From Ampullaceana balthica (Eukaryota; Mollusca; Gastropoda; Lymnaeidae), in the NCBI GenBank assembly GCA_944989445.1, contig CALYLW010000979.1:452796-516795 (forward strand): a stretch of 64,000 bases of DNA, read 5' to 3'. Position 1 is the stretch's first letter. Every line of letters starts with the position of its first letter. The notes under the pieces are model-generated. The model had not been told where the DNA came from. It worked only from the letters and a program-made list of their open reading frames with translations, and did not search any database. The position numbers and the translations under genes were made by a program. Shown one piece after another: positions 10,805 through 55,560 of this stretch.

Positions 10805-11350
10805 ACATTGACCTAAACCATCTTCCAAATAACAATGATCGACCTGAACCATCTTCCAAATAACAATGATCGACCTGAACCATCTTCCAAATAACCATGA
10901 TCGACCTCAACCATCTTCCAAATAACCATGACTGACCTCAACCATCTTCCAAATAACCATGACTAACTTCAACCATCTGCCAAATAACCATGACTGATCT
11001 CAACCATCTTCCAAATAGCCATTACTGACCTCAACCATCTTCCTAATAACCATAACTGATCTCAACCATCTTCCAAATAACCATGACTAACTTCAACCAT
11101 CTTCCAAATAACCATGACTGATCTCAACCATCTTCCAAATAGCCATTACTGACCTCAACCATCTTCCTAATAGCCATAACTGACCTCAACCATCTTCCAA
11201 ATAACCATGACTGACCTCAACCATCTTCCAAATAACCATGACTGACCTCAACCATCTTCCAAATAACCATGACTGACATCAACCATCTTCCAAATAACCA
11301 TGAGTGACATCAACCATCTTCCAAATAACCATGACTGACCTCAACCGTTC
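10805..11350. repeat. 31-bp minisatellite
   Basis: About 17 copies of a 31-bp unit (CCATGACTGACCTCAACCAT followed by CTTCCAAATAA). Variants (GACC/GATC/AACT, CCAAAT/CCTAAT) recur in blocks, which indicates local amplification. A short inverted copy of the same unit lies at 16885-16968. Confidence 0.95.
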
Positions 11351-16412: not shown

Positions 16413-16880
16413 GGAATGCAGTCCAGCGATAAGCATCGTGAGTTGTGTAAGTAAATAAAACATGGGCAAAACTGATAAACATTTTGTCGCCATGAAATAA
16501 AAAGCTAATTAATTTATTGGGCTTGCCGTGTAGCATTATGAAAATATTTAAACCATCCTCCATCAACCCGGAAGTGATTTACACGGTGCCGAGTTCAATA
16601 AGTACACATCTACATTACACACACCCAGCATTACATTTCTTTTAACTGGCAAACTTTCGGGATAGAAACTGTCACCGTGGGAGAAATAATATTACTGGGG
16701 CCATATTAATTGAGGTGGAAAATGATATTAAGGGAAGTAACCAAAATAACAAAACGGCCGACGGAGCTAAGTCAGCCCCAGAGTTGTCCTGCTCTACGTA
16801 AGAAATTCATGTGTTGAGATTTTCATAAATTGAAACTCTGTTACTATTTCTAAAAGAAGTCAATAAAATTGAGTGGTCAT
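16413..16880. other. Non-coding stretch
   Basis: AT-rich, with no repeat or exon recognised. Confidence 0.5.
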
Positions 16881-16968
16881 TGTTATTTAGAAGATGGTTG
16901 AGGTCAGTCATGGTTATTTGGAAGATGGTTGAGGTCAGTCATGGTTATTTTGAAGATGATTGAGGCCC
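16881..16968 (-). repeat. Inverted short copy of the 31-bp minisatellite
   Basis: Just over two and a half units of the reverse complement of the array at 10805-11350 (GAAGATGGTTGAGGTCAGTC-ATGGTTATTT). It is followed by GGCCCCAATGTT, which also matches the sequence (AGCCCCAACATTG) at the left edge of that array. It therefore includes the array border as well as units. Confidence 0.85.
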
Positions 16969-20107: not shown

Positions 20108-22635
20108 ATTTTTTTTTAAATATTGAAACTTATTAACTGATTTTTTAAAAAGTCTTAATAGTAAAAATTATTGGCAAATCCATGTTTGCTTATATGCCCA
20201 TTCGACAGAGCTGATAATATGTTCACTTATTCATTCATCACAACCAAATTATCTCCACAAATAAGAAACATTGGTTTACAGTCAAAATAAGTAAAAAGAT
20301 TCAGAATCCCAACGGATTTGAAGGCTCCATTTTTAGAATCACATTTTTCTTCACCATTTTAAAAGCTAGCTTTGACATTATCAAGTTCACCGTAACAGGT
20401 AAAAAAATTTAATTTCCAGGCACTAACCTACTTAATTACTATGTGTTAATCCAAAAAGAGCAACTGATCATTACTGGGCTACAGTAATGATTAACACCCA
20501 CTCCCTACGCAAGTTTATTTTTGCTTAATCTAATTGAAGTCAGAATGCTCTCAGGTACCCTATCATTTGGTAACGCTCCTAATAAGGGATTCAGAGTCGC
20601 AATTTTTATGGCAGGGCCATTTAAAATATTACCTACGATTTTCTTTCTGCCTAGATATAATTTTACAAAGGGTCAAGACATTTAGGGCCAGATGAATGTG
20701 TGCGGAAGGCCAGATGGGGCCTGCAGGCCTTGTGTTTGATACATGCATTCTAAACTTTATCGTTCTTGTAATTCAAAATAAAAAATAATTCATACGTTGT
20801 TACTTATAAAGGGGCTGAAGAGAAGACTATACAATCTGCTGAGAACTAACTAGCCTAGGCAAGAGGCAGAGCTCAAATTTAATAAGCCCGGGTCTAGGTT
20901 TATTTGTCAAGTAAGATTAAGTAAAGTAAGTTAAATTACTTAGCTGTGCAAATTAATATGATCTAATCTTACTCTAATGGGACAAAAAAGTTAATTAATT
21001 AATTTAGTTAATTAAGTTAGGTCTTGCTCTTAGTCCTTAGCCAAGTCAGCTACTAGAAATAGAAATAGTAGTAGTTGTAATAGGAGTACAGCAGTGATAC
21101 AAAAAGGCTTAGTACTTAATTTAGTGACTTAGTGATAGTGCCCCCTACCAAGGACGGGACAAAAGTTTTGATGCCAAATTCCAATAATAACAAAATAATA
21201 AACATTGGCATTGATTTTAAATTTAAATGCATAACCCATCCCTCCATTTAAAATAATATAAGTCATAATTATAATAAGTGTCAAAATGAGGAGTAAGGTT
21301 AGTTATTACTAATAATATTAGTAGTAGTAGTAGTCTTAGTAGCAAATTAGTCAAGTCGGTAATCCCTTATTTCAGCGCATTTTATTTAATTTATATTTCA
21401 ACTCAAGTCATCAAAAAAATATTTTTTCAAACTTACTTCATTAATTATTATTATGAAATCTATTTTAAAATTAAAACATAATTTTTTTGTTGAAATAAAA
21501 TTACAATTTTAAGATTTGTACGAAATAAAAATTTGTATATTTCACTATCTTCATTGTTGTTGTTGGAAGTCTGCTTTTAAAAACCTTTTTCATTTCTAAA
21601 TTAAAAACCCCCTTAAACTCAACAAAACACACGGAAAACTAATTGTAAAGCATTAAATAATTTTTTTTATTTCTGATTTAAGTGTTTAAATTAGTAAAAG
21701 TAAGTTATTTTATTTATTTTGTTCTAAACATTTTTAATCCGCTGAAATAAAAAGTAGGGATTACCAATTTCAATTAGTCTTAGATAAGTTTTTAAAAGTT
21801 ATGGTCCTAAGTATGGCATGGACCAGTATTCTAAATTTAAGTTCAGTACAGTAAAACGAAGTATTTTAAATTTAACTTAGGACTTAAGAAAAAATATATA
21901 AATTAAATAAATGTTGTAAAGTAAATTGGAAGGACGGCCTGGGCGGCGAGGGAAAAAGAAGAGAGGAGCTTTGACTTATTACTTATTATAAATTATACTA
22001 TTACGAATACAAAGAACAAAGGAGATTATCAAGAAGTCTTTAAAAGATTGCGATATATTCGTATTTAACATAACTAATTAAGACGAAAGTAGAGTTGTCA
22101 ATTAAGTTAGCAGGGCTACATTCTACATCATATTCATTTTCGAGTTTAAAATTTCATTCGACTATTTTGCACTCGTTAGTTTTCGGTCTCTTTTGTACTT
22201 TTTTTGGTGTCAGTGTTGTTTTAAACTTCAAATGAGGGTGGATTTAACACTTAGATTGAAATGGTTAAGTATATTGTGAGGCTTATGGATGAAAACACCA
22301 ATAAAAAATCTAACTAATAACATGAAATAAAAATGTATTGTTACTTACCGTAACTTTTTAACACTAACAGGTAAATATTAAAAAAAATGCGAAATTAAGT
22401 TTTCGATGAATTTCTCCTCGACTTCCTGTCACTACTATTTTTTAAGGTGAAGGCCACATTTTTTTTTATTAAAGGGAATTTATTCCAGTAATTATTTATG
22501 TAAAATTATGAATGGTAGCCTCCCTTTTTTAACCATGATTTTAAAAAAAATTGGGAAGTAAAAAAATATTTTAAAAATTAACACTGGTATAAATAAGTAT
22601 AAGACATACATTTGAAAAGAAAGGCGGATGAAATA
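20108..22635. other. AT-rich non-coding stretch
   Basis: About 2.5 kb of strongly AT-rich sequence with many TTAATT and TAGTAG runs. At 20690-20740, GGCCAGATGGGGCCTGCAGG resembles a decayed transposon end. The 92-codon minus frame at 22492-22770 has a hydrophobic stretch but no homology. No exon is supported. Confidence 0.5.
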
Positions 22636-22639
22636 AAGA

Positions 22640-23062
22640 ATATCTAATATATAAAGATGAACGTTTGTTTGTTTGTTACCCATAGACTTCCACACCGTTG
22701 GACCTAGGGTAGCTGAAATTTTGCATGGAAGAAATGGACACTTGGAAATTAGTGCCCTATAGCATTTCAATATCCGCTACCAAGTTGTTACATAAAATAC
22801 AAAGTTTGATCAAGATCCACCAATTTACGCAATAGCTAAGGCTTAAACTAATTTTTATATAGCTCATATAAGAAAAAATTCTCATTATGGGCCCCCGGCG
22901 CCCCATAAGTGTTAAATTTTGAAGAAAAAAAGTTGCCTATTTCCATCCCGGGTGCGTACTCAAAAGTCTCCAAACGTTTCATGGCGATCGGATGAATGGT
23001 TTAGTCAGCTATAAAAGACATGCATACATACATACATACTTTGATTTATATATATATATAGA
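22640..23062 (+). repeat. Interspersed repeat (ends CATACATACATACAT)
   Basis: Begins GATGAACGTTTGTTTGTTTG and ends with a CATA microsatellite followed by a TA run. The middle holds blocks (TATATAGCTCATATAAGAAA then GGGCCCCCGG, and GTTTCATGGCGATCGGATGA) that recur, diverged, in the tandem units at 29660-30960. Non-coding; class unknown. Confidence 0.6.
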
Positions 23063-23204
23063 TGTACGAAACTAAATTTCCTCTTTACAAAAATATTAAA
23101 ACACAACAAATGACAAATGTGTTATTTTTAAGAATCTTTTTTTAAATTTTAAATTTGACGAGAATCTCATCTGGCTTTATTATAGTCATTATAGAGCGCT
23201 TTTG

Positions 23205-23420
23205 TTAACTTATTTTAATTAAGCACTACACGCACTTAGATTATTTGTGGGGCCCATCTACCAAAGAAATTGTAGATAAAATAGAACACGATCAATATTC
23301 AAAGCTCTAATAAAATGCAAAACAAGACACAAACCAAGATAAAGCGTAGGATGCATAGATATTTGTGTTTAAAAATTGAGGAAGTCTGTAATGTATAAGA
23401 TAAGATAAGGTCAATAAGGT
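23205..23420 (+). mobile_element. LINE 3' fragment, internally deleted
   Basis: At about 23247 a short decayed piece of reverse-transcriptase sequence (GGGGCCCATCTACCAAAGAA, matching the WDPSTKEN region of the copy at 28474). It jumps to the 3' end (ACACAAACCAAGATAAAGCG) and a GATAA-type tail at 23397-23412. Most of the intervening coding sequence is missing. Confidence 0.75.
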
Positions 23421-23769
23421 AAGATAACATAATGATGCCGAATTAGAGTGCCACTGAGAATACATGCTACGGCCAAAGCCCCAAATCAGTCAAAGTGGGA
23501 ACTGGCTAATATCACCTCACATTTACCGGCTAAAGCCCGATTTTTTTATTAATTTTTTTTTAAAATTCGGAACGTGGCCAGTTGCAAAACGGCATGGGGC
23601 GATCGGCCAAAGTCGGAATAAGAAGGTCACGAGCAGATTTTAAGTGTTTGTATGACGTTATGATTATGACAGTAGGCCTACATTGATTGAATGTTAGTGA
23701 AATTAAATTACACAATTAGTCAAATTAGTTTGTTATGGTAAATTATCAAACTCTTTGCAAGATGAACTA

Positions 23770-25242
23770 TTATAACATTTTGAATTATACAACAGCTTGT
23801 TATTTTCACATTTCTGTTGAGCACTTGGTGGTGTGTCGAGTGTAGCCTTGGTGTGTCGAGTGTAGCCTTGGTGTGTCGAGTGTAGCCTTGGTGTGTCGAG
23901 TGTAGCCTTGGTGTGTCGAGTGTAGCCTTGGTGTGTCGAGTGTAGCCTTGGTGTGTCGAGTGTAGCCTTGGTGTGTCGAGTGTAGCCTTGGTGTGTCGAG
24001 TGTAGTCTTGGTGTGTCTAGTGTAGCCTTGGTGGGTCAAGTGTAGCCTTGGTGTGTCAAGTGTAGCCTTGGTGTGTCGAGTGTAGCCTTGGTGTGTCGAG
24101 TGTAGCCTTGGTGTGCCGAGTGTAGCCTTGGTGTGTCGAGTGTAGCCTTGGTGTGTCGAGTGTAGCCTTGGTGTGTCGAGTGTAGCCTTGGTGTGTCGAG
24201 TGTAGCCTTGGTGTGCCGAGTGTAGCCTTGGTGTGTCGAGTGTAGCCTTGATGTGTCGAGTGTAGCCTTGGTGTGTCGAGTGTAGCCTTGGTGTGTCGAG
24301 TGTAGCCTTGGTGTGTCGAGTGTAGCCTTGGTGTGCCGAGTGTAGCCTTGGTGTGCCGAGTGCAGCCTTGGTGTGCCGAGTGTAGCCTTGGTGTGTCGAG
24401 TGTAGCCTTGGTGTGTCGAGTGTAGCCTTGGTGTGTCGAGTGTAGCCTTGGTGTGTCGAGTGTAGCCTTGGTGTGTCGAGTGTAGCCTTGGTGTGTCGAG
24501 TGTAGCCTTGGTGTGCCGAGTGTAGCCTTGGTGTGCCGAGTGCAGCCTTGGTGTGCCGAGTGTAGCCTTGGTGTGTCGAGTGTAGCCTTGGTGTGTCGAG
24601 TGCAGCCTTGGTGTGCCGAGTGTAGCCTTGGTGTGTCGAGTGTAGCCTTGGTGTGTCGAGTGTAGCCTTGGTGTGTCGAGTGTAGCCTTGGTGTGTCGAG
24701 TGTAGCCTTGGTGTGTCGAGTGTAGCCTTGGCGTGTCGAGTGTAGCCTTGGTGTGTCGAGTGTAGCCTTGGTGTGTCGAGTGTAGCCTTGGTGTGTCGAG
24801 TGTAGCCTTGGTGTGTCGAGTGTAGCCTTGGTGTGTCGAGTGTAGCCTTGGCCGCCAGTCAGTGAGTGTGAAGATGCTACGGTTCCTTGTGATTTTTCTT
24901 CCTTGCCTCCGGATTCAATTGTAGGCACAATTTTCTTGTTTAGAATGGAACACTCACTTCTAGAATACAGTTGTTTGAGAACACCATATTCTGTTCCTAG
25001 CATTATAGAAAGCTCTCTCGACGTTTTGACAACTGCAGGGCGCTTTGCAGATCACTGCGACATCTGTCAACATCTGGTACACGGATGTGTACATTATCTC
25101 CAACTTTCGCGGGTGGGAATTCAGCATCTGAAATCTTTAGCATCTTGTCACATTGAGTTTGTAAACTAACTTGAGCTGCTGACCTCATGTTCCCGATTTC
25201 TTTTTTATTATGACATAGTATGCGAGTCATTGTCTGTCCCAC
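23770..25242 (-). pseudogene. KRBA2-like integrase-family transposon ORF interrupted by a minisatellite
   Basis: Reading the minus strand from 25242, a frame contains FPPAKVGDNVHIRVPDVDR at 25116-25060. This motif is characteristic of KRBA2-like proteins, which derive from transposon integrases. After a frame change near 25003 it continues LGTEYGVLKQLYSRSE and SLTGGQGYTRH, the typical C-terminal region before a Cys-rich tail. The frame then enters the 20-bp array and leaves it at 23830 as GYTRHTTKCSTEM. After another slip comes a CENNKLLYNS-like stretch, matching the Cys-rich tail. The upstream integrase catalytic domain is not visible. Family assignment is from remembered motif patterns. Confidence 0.6.
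23831..24850. repeat. 20-bp minisatellite, 51 units in perfect register
   Basis: Unit GTGTGTCGAGTGTAGCCTTG repeated exactly 51 times with no insertion or deletion and few substitutions (GTGTGC, TGCAGC, GTGTCTAG, GTGGGTCAAG). Blocks 24301-24480 and 24481-24660 are near-identical nine-unit (180-bp) repeats. In the minus sense the unit CAAGGCTACACTCGACACAC encodes GYTRHTKATLDTPRLHSTHQ over three units. All frames are open, which explains the 315-codon frame. Lies inside the KRBA2-like ORF. Confidence 0.98.
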
Positions 25243-26215
25243 CGTACCCTACGTCTCATTCATTACTTATTCCACAAAATGCGTTGACATCGTTGCCACA
25301 GGATCAACAAGAATGGGCTGACGTCACACTTTCCCCCAACACTACACAGAAGCTGTTCGTATTGCTGTTGGCAGGTAACCGGTTTGGACCGCTCAATGAC
25401 TCCGTCACCACGGCAAAATTTTCGTTAGCCGAGGAAGTCGCCGCATTCAACGTATACTCCATTTATTGTAGGACGTTCGGGCGTTCTCAAGATCTTCGTC
25501 TGAAACCAAGAAACCGACGACCTCCCTGGAGAGATTAGAGATTTTTAGTCCTACCTCTGCCTCTGGACAGATTAGAGATGTTTAGTCCTACCTCTGCCTC
25601 TGGACAGATTAGGGATGTTTAGTCCTACCGCTGGACAGATTAGAGGTGTTTAGTCCTACTTTGTGTGTGTGTGTGTATGCTAAATATGGTCTCCGCCTAT
25701 TCGACAGTCTTGCATCAGCACATTGAATGTTCGATAGGGATTTCCCCGTACTTAGGGAAGTGGCTGCCAGAGTAGCAATTTCCAGCACATCTGGCAATGG
25801 CCACACGCCTCGACACAAAGTGAGAAATGGCCGGCCCATTCACGAACTGGCCGAACTTAGGGTTTGGGGCGTAAATTTGCACATTTATTGAAAAAGTTTT
25901 TTTAAAAATAAAGTACGCTTCTGTCAACCAGTTTAATGTTTCTAGATTGCCCGCTGTTTCAAGTTTATTTTAAGTACTGAAAGTATATATATTTATATAT
26001 ATATTTACCCGCAAATATCGCTGACTGCCTCACGCCTAACGCTAAGGGACATAACTATGCTTTTTTTTTAAATTGAAAATATAGACTTAAAAATCATAAT
26101 CATTTTGGTTTCCAGATTAACATTAACCAAACAACGCACGAACCTATGACTTAAGCATTTGTGTTGTAAACAGTGCTGACTGACTCAAAGATATATTTTT
26201 TGGTGCCGTAATTTG
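25243..26215. other. Non-coding stretch with small tandem repeat
   Basis: Positions 25543-25665 hold about four copies of a GATTAGAGATGTTTAGTCCT-type unit of 30-41 bp, and a GT run lies at 25663-25678. The plus frame at 25230-25538 (102 codons) has no recognised domain. It lies upstream of the KRBA2-like frame on the opposite strand and may be its shadow. TA-rich microsatellite near 25985-26005. Confidence 0.45.
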
Positions 26216-26219
26216 GTGC

Positions 26220-26470
26220 GCTGCTTTCTAAAAGTAGTTAAAAATCGTGTGGTGATTAGCACTGTAAAAATATTATATAAATACTTTGTGTACATTTCAG
26301 GAGTATTTCGTATTTATCATACAAAGGAAGGATAAGTTTCTTTGGGCCTTTGACAAAACCCTCTTATAAAATACTTTGTGTACATTTCAGGAAGTTTAAT
26401 ATTACGTATTTATCATACAAGGACAAGTTAGTTGGGCTTTTGAAAAAGGTGGGCGCCGCAGCACAACCTA
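26220..26470 (-). repeat. R2 interspersed repeat, partial and internally duplicated
   Basis: Two copies of the block ATACTTTGTGTACATTTCAG lie at about 26280 and 26371, followed by TTAGTTGGGCTTTTGAAAAA and one GGCGCC-related motif (GGGCGCCGC). Boundaries are eroded. Confidence 0.65.
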
Positions 26471-26860
26471 GTAATAATAATAAAGCTAATATAATATTTA
26501 ACAAATGTTCATGAGTTTGTTGAAATTGAAAGTTTCATCTTTATATACCATTGTATAGTGATATAAATGTCATATAGAATTGGACTGCGATAAAGCTTTT
26601 AAAAATAAAATACAAGATGCACAAAAGAATTGTTTGATCAAAACAATGTAAATTTAATTTTAATACTTGTGTATGTTATTTGTACTGACGAAGGCATTAG
26701 CCGAAATGGTAACTTTAGTCTTAGTCAATTAATTAAGCTTTAATTTATTGTTTACGTCACACAATTGGTTTGTGTAGCCAGTATGTTATTTAATTTATTG
26801 TTTTGATCACACAATTATTTTGTGCTTCTTTTATGTTGTTGTGTAGTGATAAAACTTTAC

Positions 26861-26974
26861 CTGTTGTAAAACGTCATTAGCTTCCATCATCCTCTGTCTG
26901 TAGTCATCTATGCACATCTCCATGTCCCTGATCTTGTCAGACTGGGCCTCAACTTGGTCAGAGAGAACGGACAC
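26861..26974 (-). CDS. PPFIBP: Liprin-beta coiled-coil exon
   Basis: A 114-nt exon read from 26974 down to 26861, flanked by acceptor TATTGCAG and donor CAG/GTAAAG. Both borders are at codon boundaries. It encodes 38 residues starting VSVLSDQVEAQSDKIRDMEM and ending MEANDVLQQ. This matches the liprin-beta (PPFIBP1/2) N-terminal coiled coil, where VSVL(T/S)DQVEAQGEKIRDLE to EEMLQQ lies within an exon with the same borders. Liprin-beta is a cytoplasmic scaffold that binds liprin-alpha and LAR-type receptor phosphatases at adhesion sites and synapses. Conserved heptads support a coiled coil. The preceding exon is at 29272-29346; the next downstream exon was not found. The gene symbol denotes the family. 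Confidence 0.85.
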
Positions 26975-27142
26975 CTGCAATATATTGAGATAGCAATGCA
27001 GTTAGTCGTAGGACAGAAACATAGAGCACAACAAGATAATCAGACAGTAAGACACTCAGAAGCCTATAATATAATATATAGAGATAGTCAGGCAATTACT
27101 CGTTCACAATAAGTCGAGGTGCGCCACAGGAACTGATATTTG

Positions 27143-27385: not shown

Positions 27386-27820
27386 TAAAATCCCTTACAT
27401 TAACTTCCCCGTCTTGTCTGTCGTGGGCACGCTGTCGAGCGGAAAAACAAAAGTAAAAAATGACCCACTTCCCGTGATGCTATAGAGCTGAAAGTTTGCA
27501 TATAGACTCGTGTCACCTAACAATGCATAGTTTCAAAATTTCAGATCGATCGAATGTACCGTAATTAAATTAATGCATTTTTAGTTTATCTCTATGTATT
27601 TCTATATAGCCGTCTGCTATTGTAAACATCCACAATCCACCAGAGAACACAGCAGTGAACAATGACGACAACACGTTTTTTTACAGCAAGGGAGTTCAGT
27701 CAGTTTCAGTCTGTAAATGTTTGTCGCGCGGTGCATATTATGTTGAAAATAATAAATAATTTTACTTATGTCTCATATATAAGGGATTTATAGTCAAAAA
27801 CTTTGTTTTTACGGGTTGCT
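27386..27820 (-). repeat. R1 interspersed repeat copy
   Basis: From AAAATCCCTTACATTAACTT to ACTTTGTTTTTACGGGTT. It includes the CAGATCGATCGAATGTACCG block. It shares the internal GCCGTCTGCTATTGT block with the shorter copy immediately before it, so the pair may be one tandem duplication with a deletion. Intronic to the liprin-beta gene. Confidence 0.85.
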
Positions 27821-34098: not shown

Positions 34099-34551
34099 TC
34101 ACATAGCTTCTGCTCTGACACTTCCTTTACATTCTGTTGATTTCCCTGAATCAAGTGTGGCTAGAATAGCAGACAATGATCCAACAACTGAATGAACTGC
34201 ATGCTTACGACTTGCACATCTTGTATCAGAAAGTCGTTTCAGAGTATCTACTGTTGATTCATATTGTGATTGCTGGTGTTCTTTAAGAGTATGTAGACGT
34301 GGTAAACTAGACGTAAGGAATGCATACAACCTTAAAGCTGTGCCGAAAACCAACTGTACATCAGTGTTTACAGACATTGCTTCGATAGTAACCAAATTCA
34401 AAACATGGGCACAACAATTGGGTGAAAGTTTCTTTATTTGTGTTTGAAGGCCACTCTTAATTCCAGAGTATGCCTGGCCTCGACAGAGTGTGAAATCAAC
34501 GTTTCGCTTTTGTAGTTCCGTTAAAATCTTCTCAGCAATCGCGGAAGCTTT
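34099..34551 (-). pseudogene. hAT transposase fragment (DUF4371/ZMYM1-like type)
   Basis: An open minus-strand stretch of about 150 codons with ELQKRNVDFTLCRGQAYSG, CCAHVLNLVTIEAM and TLKRLSDTRCASRKHAV. These match the order of motifs in hAT transposases of the type annotated as zinc finger MYM-type protein 1-like: CRGQ, C-x-AH-x-LNL, and the SDTRW-x-SR motif near the catalytic core. The tryptophan of SDTRW is replaced by cysteine, and the segment between GQ and SGLQ is shortened compared with the family. The N-terminal and dimerisation regions are missing or decayed. The parent element is 31790-35203. A pseudogene. Confidence 0.78.
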
Positions 34552-34599
34552 TTTTTTAATTAATTTTTTTTAACATTATTTTTTAAGTCCCATAACCGG

Positions 34600-45810: not shown

Positions 45811-45815
45811 TCAGT

Positions 45816-45935
45816 CACAGGTAAAGAATAATAAATGTTATAACAGTCACAGGTAGAGCAATAATAAATGTTATAACAGTCACAGGTAGAGCAATAATAA
45901 ATGTTATAACAGTCACAGGTAGAGCATTAATAAAA
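45816..45935. repeat. 33-bp tandem repeat, 3.5 copies
   Basis: Unit TTATAACAGTCACAGGTAGA followed by GCAATAATAAATG. It passes into degenerate TTGAACTA/TTGTATAA repeats at 45945-46200. Confidence 0.85.
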
Positions 45936-54384: not shown

Positions 54385-54560
54385 ATGGGCGTGGTCGGGA
54401 GTAGATAAATTAAATAAACTTTGTGGGTGGGTGTGGTCTGGCCCCGATTAATTAAAAAACCTAATGGATGTGGTGTGGTCTAGATTAATTAAATAAAACT
54501 TGTGGGCGTGGTCTGGCCAGGATTAATTTTAAAAATCTAGTGGGCGTGATCTAGCCTTCA
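54385..54560. repeat. Degenerate ~38-bp tandem repeat
   Basis: Five diverged copies of a TGTGGGCGTGGTCTGGCC then GATTAATTAAATAA unit at 54387, 54428, 54469, 54505 and 54542. Confidence 0.8.
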
Positions 54561-54631
54561 TTGATAAACTTTTCCTAGTAGGCATGTTTGAAACTATAGT
54601 TGAACAACCTGTTACTGATCTTATTGCTTAC

Positions 54632-54895
54632 CCTTGCGCCTGGTACCGTGCCCCAATGCTCCTGCTGACCGGCTACCCTTGCGCCGGGCACCGTGCCCCA
54701 GTGCTCCTGTTGGTTGGTTACCCTTGCGCCTGGCACCGTGCCCCAATGCTCCTGCTGGTTGCTTATCCTTGTCCTGGGCACCGTGCCCAAGTGCTCCTGC
54801 TGGTTGCTTACCCTTGCCCCGGGCACCGTGCCCCAGTGCTCCTGCTGGTAGTAGCCCCAATACTGGCCGTTCCGGTCATAGGGGCGAAAGCTCAT
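54632..54895 (-). CDS. Candidate first coding exon with a coding 45-bp repeat
   Basis: Read from 54895, ATG with A at -3 opens MSFRPYDRNGQYWGYY. Five 15-residue repeats follow, of the type QQEHWGTVPGARVSN (variants LGTVPRTRISN, ARVTN, ARVAG). The repeat end reads AAG/GGTAAGC, and GTAAGC is a strong donor, so splicing could occur at about 54632-54640. The segment is about 60% GC in an AT-rich neighbourhood, and the upstream 150 bp contains an inverted CCAAT (55024). A gene-start role is plausible. Because 45 is a multiple of three, plus-strand frames are open too, which weakens the case. No family is recognised; relation to liprin-beta is unknown. Confidence 0.35.
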
Positions 54896-55560
54896 TGTGG
54901 TGACATCCGCTGACCGTAGCTCAAAAATCCAACGACATTATCCATGAACTGTTCAATGTAAGACGAGTGACCATCCGCGTGTCATCATTTTATCGTTTGA
55001 ACTAGTCCACAAAGTTATGGTCCAATCAGTGATGTGGTATACAGTAGTATACACCGACGGCGTTGCTATATTTACTAGACATGTATAAGTCTATTTTTGA
55101 GACCCGTCTTGTGTAATCAACATCTGCGAGTGAGTGATTGAAGCATCAAACGAGAGCATCGCGATAGTAGAGGAGAAAAGGGTTTTAAATGTCAGGAAAT
55201 AGTTAACTTCTGCCGCCGCACGATATTCCGCGGGTTGAAATAATGTCAACATTCTTTGAAGTAAAGGTTAACATCATAACATGTCGTCTAGAGGTAGTCC
55301 AAGAAAAAGCTTTACTTTAAAGCTACACATGTCAAAATCGGCATAGGTTTGAGATAATCTATGCACAGATCTATTTAATCCGTATCTCTACCAGATAATC
55401 CAAACTTATTATATGAAAGAATAATCTAAGCATAAATATGTTCACATAAACATTCGTACCGTTATTTCTCTGTTCATAAACTAGCCATAACCAGCATTTC
55501 AATTACAATTATGACAGCAGACTGACGTAAACTTATAGGTCAACAAGAAAGAGGTGGCAC
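54896..55560. other. Unassigned stretch, possible promoter side of the candidate exon
   Basis: Unique sequence. CCAATCAG at 55023-55030 and moderately GC-rich DNA to 55260. No coding evidence. Confidence 0.3.

Follow-up and report, generated by a model that had tools for sequence, protein, structure and literature searches.

Tandem arrays derived from transposable elements have been described from LTRs, SINEs, the coding regions of LINEs and the transposase region of CACTA elements (PMC6947457, PMC9659126). For the human genome, one survey reports at least 7,276 minisatellites and satellites (23%) to be transposon-derived; 300 of these 7,276 carry flanking direct repeats of 5–20 bp, and two established mechanisms account for 6% of the transposon-derived cases (PMC3389668). 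In Chenopodium, the CficCl-61-40 satellite is reported to originate from the Tnp2 transposase region of a CACTA-like element, Jozin (PMC9659126). As to how such arrays begin, the Haber–Louis model of minisatellite birth, as cited in PMC6947457, involves a short direct repeat flanking the stretch that is duplicated. The gene class concerned here is that of KRBA2 and SCAND3, two mammalian genes of integrase origin that are assigned to the integrase core family rve (PMC3257199). A minisatellite inside a KRBA2/SCAND3-type gene was found in none of the literature matches listed, all from open-licence papers, which is weak evidence of absence.

The array analyzed here lies on the minus strand at positions 23831–24850 of a 64,000-base window (the whole stretch of DNA that was analyzed). 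It consists of 51 full copies of the 20-mer CAAGGCTACACTCGACACAC (minus sense) without a single indel, as an earlier note on this DNA had claimed; Tandem Repeats Finder agrees with our copy count, delimiting the array at 23829–24851 with 51.2 copies, 97% matches and 0% indels. Thirty-five of the 51 copies are identical to the consensus, and the 1020 bp contain 19 substitutions. Minisatellite units measure roughly 10–100 bp, with limits that differ between authors, and 51 head-to-tail copies of a 20-bp unit fall within that range. Chance origin is not a concern for the array itself, which has no visible function. Within the 64,000 bases, neither the 20-mer nor its first 14 bases have a second site at up to two mismatches.

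The array is embedded in the remnant of a gene, recognizable from about 23754 to 25663 on the minus strand and marked by stops and by the use of more than one frame. The earlier note had placed the whole feature at 23770–25242, an interval that does contain the array but is shorter than the remnant. Protein searches yielded three relatives (one among 7 candidates, one among 218 and two among 20, the query being counted in the last), two of which, P0003 and P0005, extend to the array site. P0003 is a predicted protein of 603 residues that bears a SCAND3-type zinc finger at residues 411–456 (53.1 bits against a cut-off of 27); the same type of zinc finger scores 65.8 bits on P0004, against the same cut-off. 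The integrase core (rve) is weak on both proteins (20.5 bits on P0003 and 22 bits on P0004, below the cut-off of 32.6) and was not found in the remnant, which begins at P0003 residue 332. Two remnant peptides matched no Pfam family, the SCAND3-type zinc finger included, and a PDB search with these peptides returned two rows only (E 0.29 and 0.88), both taken as chance. The KRBA2 label is presumptive: it goes back to the earlier reading and has no database hit behind it. We call the locus the remnant of a SCAND3/KRBA2-type integrase gene and not a member of that class. The likeness to the class lies in the relative P0003, whose SCAND3-type zinc finger passes the curated cut-off, and the difference in the window, where all that is present is a broken remnant. 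Viral contigs searched with P0003, P0005, a degenerate GGQGYTRCNC pattern and the 20-mer gave no match, and a search of bacterial and archaeal contigs with P0004 gave 98 pattern-matching stretches, none of which encodes a relative.

Read along the minus strand, the remnant comprises EAEVGLKISNLSREVVGFLVSDEDLEN (25483–25563, equivalent to P0003 332–358), which overlaps the final copy of a second array described below, and then a part with stops at 25241–25477, equivalent to P0003 from residue 358, i.e. the zinc-finger part as called on P0003. It continues in another frame as ILCHNKKEI...KVGDNVHIRVPDVDR (25030–25239; P0003 up to residue 505, P0004 315–384) and adjoins the array as LGTEYGVLKQLYSRSE...SLTGG (24851–25000; P0003 about 520–564). 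QGYTR (P0003 565–569) forms the start of the first copy (24850–24836), and KCENNKLLYNSKCYNSSSCK (23754–23813; P0003 582–600) lies beyond the array. Residues 358–564 of P0003 match from 25477 down to the array edge, with another frame fitting better up to residue 505, and the 63 residues nearest the array are 75% identical to P0003. P0005, taken over its whole length, matches the remnant in two stretches only.

With the array masked, the P0003 matches are collinear on both sides, scoring 95.5 and 35.4 bits to the left of it and 30.8 bits to the right, which indicates that the array interrupts one gene. On the right, P0003 582–600 matches at 23813–23757 with 63% identity (E 4.2e-4 in 5 kb). When the tails of P0003 and P0005 alone were compared with the masked window, the best place for both was the far side of the array (30.8 and 30.4 bits), their next-best places scoring 22.7 and 23.1 bits. 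Shuffling the P0003 tail 100 times gave scores with a median of 21.6 bits that did not exceed 28.5 bits. The far-side match is short (19 residues) and slightly above the best shuffle (30.8 versus 28.5 bits); its position, order and strand are all as expected. Between the second array and position 27500, neither P0003 nor P0004 revealed any more of the gene at E ≤1. A cut-and-paste DNA transposon would have terminal inverted repeats and a target-site duplication; of the 20 inverted-repeat pairs in 22500–27000, none could be tied to the ends of the remnant. Three further rows were set aside as chance: a plus-strand match of P0003 508–547 (E 0.64), a match of P0003 485–497 at 25628–25590 (E 0.84) and a P0005 row at 45812–45880 (E 0.88).

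P0003 is uninterrupted at the array site, where its sequence is SLTGGQGYTRCNCTTKCATNRCKC and its end reads SLTGGQGYTR-CNC-TTKC...KILCNSKCHRSSSC. In the window, the array separates the stretch through QGYTR from KLLYNSKCYNSSSC, giving the order SLTGG, array starting QGYTRH, TTKCST. The codons of the first copy, CAA GGC TAC ACT CGA, encode QGYTR of P0003 (five of five residues), in place and in frame; since these are the ancestral codons, the array would have arisen from the gene instead of being inserted ready-made. Thus 15 of the 20 bases of the unit agree with the P0003 peptide, and the unit comes from its own host element, as in a transposon-derived tandem repeat. The last five bases (CACAC) sit where P0003 has CNC; they match neither P0003 nor the more distant P0005, which has QGFFR-CDCSKGNKQC at this site. 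The first QGYTR codon and the first TTKC codon are 1018 bases apart, which is out of frame; with a single copy they would be 18 bases apart, which is in frame, and there is a one-in-three chance that GGQGYTR and TTKC would agree in frame at one copy but not at 51. The proposal in the earlier note that the array was born inside a transposon reading frame is therefore supported: the relative P0003 is unbroken here, its sequence can be followed to either side of the array, and the first copy encodes its QGYTR at the right place and in the right frame. Its further proposal of a single ancestral 20-mer accounts for about three quarters of the unit and, with one copy, restores the frame, but leaves CACAC unmatched.

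On these comparisons, the array is very probably an ordinary minisatellite that grew out of coding sequence belonging to a dead SCAND3/KRBA2-type integrase gene. The homology evidence would fit equally well if the birth in the gene had taken place in an ancestral element that then carried the array along, in which case other copies would have it too, because this evidence gives the place in the gene and not the locus. There is no counter-evidence: the unit is confined to one site in the window, but so is the element. We consider a birth in an ancestral copy unlikely.

A block of seven copy types, ABCBAAA, occurs twice inside the array (copies 14–20 and 23–29), and an equally long repeated block was seen in 3 of 5000 label shuffles. 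Moreover, copies 1–5 and the final eight copies are all consensus, an arrangement equalled or surpassed in 63 of 20000 random placements. The repeated block and the consensus ends are compatible with growth by multi-unit exchange. The scattered variants that give the array this internal structure also argue against the number 51 being an artefact of assembly, the real array being longer or shorter; uniform kilobase arrays are indeed difficult to assemble, but we hold such an error to be improbable, and it would alter the copy number and not the origin.

For a minisatellite grown from the gene, growth may have begun with one duplication and proceeded later by the exchange of several units at once. 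The motif CCAAG, present past the array (23824–23828, minus strand), recurs from the base before the first copy (24851–24847), and such a direct repeat at both ends would hint at slippage as the first step. The Haber–Louis model would require an ancestor with a direct repeat of about 5–10 bp on either side of the stretch to be duplicated, and CCAAG may be a short repeat of this kind. Its spacing, however, is 23 against a 20-bp unit; in addition, the motif was picked post hoc, and 12 of 3270 overlapping background positions also match. Given that the established mechanisms cover 6% of the human transposon-derived repeats in the survey cited above (PMC3389668), slippage is not to be assumed here. 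We give the mechanism of the first duplication step about even odds.

Insertion into the gene of an array formed elsewhere is very improbable: the array is mostly uniform, as a recent arrival would be, but the unit itself begins with the QGYTR codons of the gene. The reading frames bear on a different possibility, namely that a working protein contains the array as a translated repeat domain. The earlier note had described a frame that enters the array as GGQGYTRH and leaves it as TTKCSTEM, and had considered all frames open. Both peptides are present, but the frame exiting as TTKCSTEM / GYTRHTTKCSTEM differs from the entering one, which carries a TGA in copy 40 and a TAG in copy 42 and, when translated past these stops, exits as HHQVLNR. 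The openness of all frames likewise applies to the consensus unit alone, and there to the minus strand: in the real array, the second minus frame has a TGA in copy 41, making three minus-frame stops in total, the third minus frame is open across all 51 copies, and the plus frames contain 17, 16 and 17 stops. A translated domain is extremely improbable, for although three units add up to 60 bp and a minus frame stays open throughout, the surrounding gene has stops and frameshifts, the gene-derived entering frame is stopped in two copies, and P0003 and P0005 are without any such repeat.

The remnant contains a second array, at 25526–25659 on the minus strand, whose unit encodes VGLNxSNLSR and whose four unit starts are 31, 37 and 37 bases apart (period 37 and 3.8 copies according to Tandem Repeats Finder). 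A CA run lies upstream of it. Its outermost upstream copy reads KVGLNTSNLS, compared with KVGLSTSNLP in P0003 (eight of ten residues), and its final copy continues into SREVVGFLVSDEDLEN, which matches P0003. By these matches, the second array derives from a different part of this dead gene, and its outer copies are continuous with the gene, like the first copy of the main array, which counts in favour of the same kind of birth for the main array.

Several other features were noted in the window. A 31-bp unit forms an array of 17.4 copies at 10809–11346 and an inverted array of 2.9 copies at 16876–16965, about 5.5 kb away, and a 45-bp array of 5 copies (54624–54849) lies within 54533–54937, where both strands are open. 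Interspersed repeat pairs, 84–86% identical over about 400–570 bp, are found at 2441–2998/31115–31659, 17199–17695/32747–33260 and 53009–53389/62557–62940. On the minus strand, a 38-residue open stretch at 26861–26974, with splice-like AG and GT at its ends, matched nothing in Pfam or the PDB; we take it to resemble a liprin-beta coiled-coil exon. A 156-residue open stretch at 34099–34569, also on the minus strand, gave two weak Pfam rows, both below cut-off, and presumably resembles a piece of a hAT-type transposase.

Tandem arrays that grew out of transposon coding sequence have been published before; the main array is a further example of them and not a new type of element. The human transposon-derived minisatellites likewise started inside transposable elements, in a different host (PMC3389668). 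CficCl-61-40 is similar in being a tandem array that came out of the transposase-coding part of a DNA transposon; it differs in its superfamily and host and in being termed a satellite, whereas the array described here still sits within the gene remnant (PMC9659126). To these, the present locus contributes an ancestral sequence that can still be read and a second array birth in the same gene. Few minisatellites keep a record of the prior sequence; in this case, the original part of the unit can be told from a protein relative.

Tandem arrays are common in the window: 19 arrays, picked by hand from 63 Tandem Repeats Finder rows, cover 12,691 of its 64,000 bases, so that the presence of one array is unsurprising. 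The genome is presumably that of an animal, perhaps a mollusc. Two arrays within a remnant of about 1.9 kb, together with 19 covering about one fifth of the window, raise the tentative possibility, which we think less probable than its contrary, that this genome starts arrays unusually often and from almost any sequence. If that is true, dead transposon genes would be readable fossils of the sequence from which each array started.
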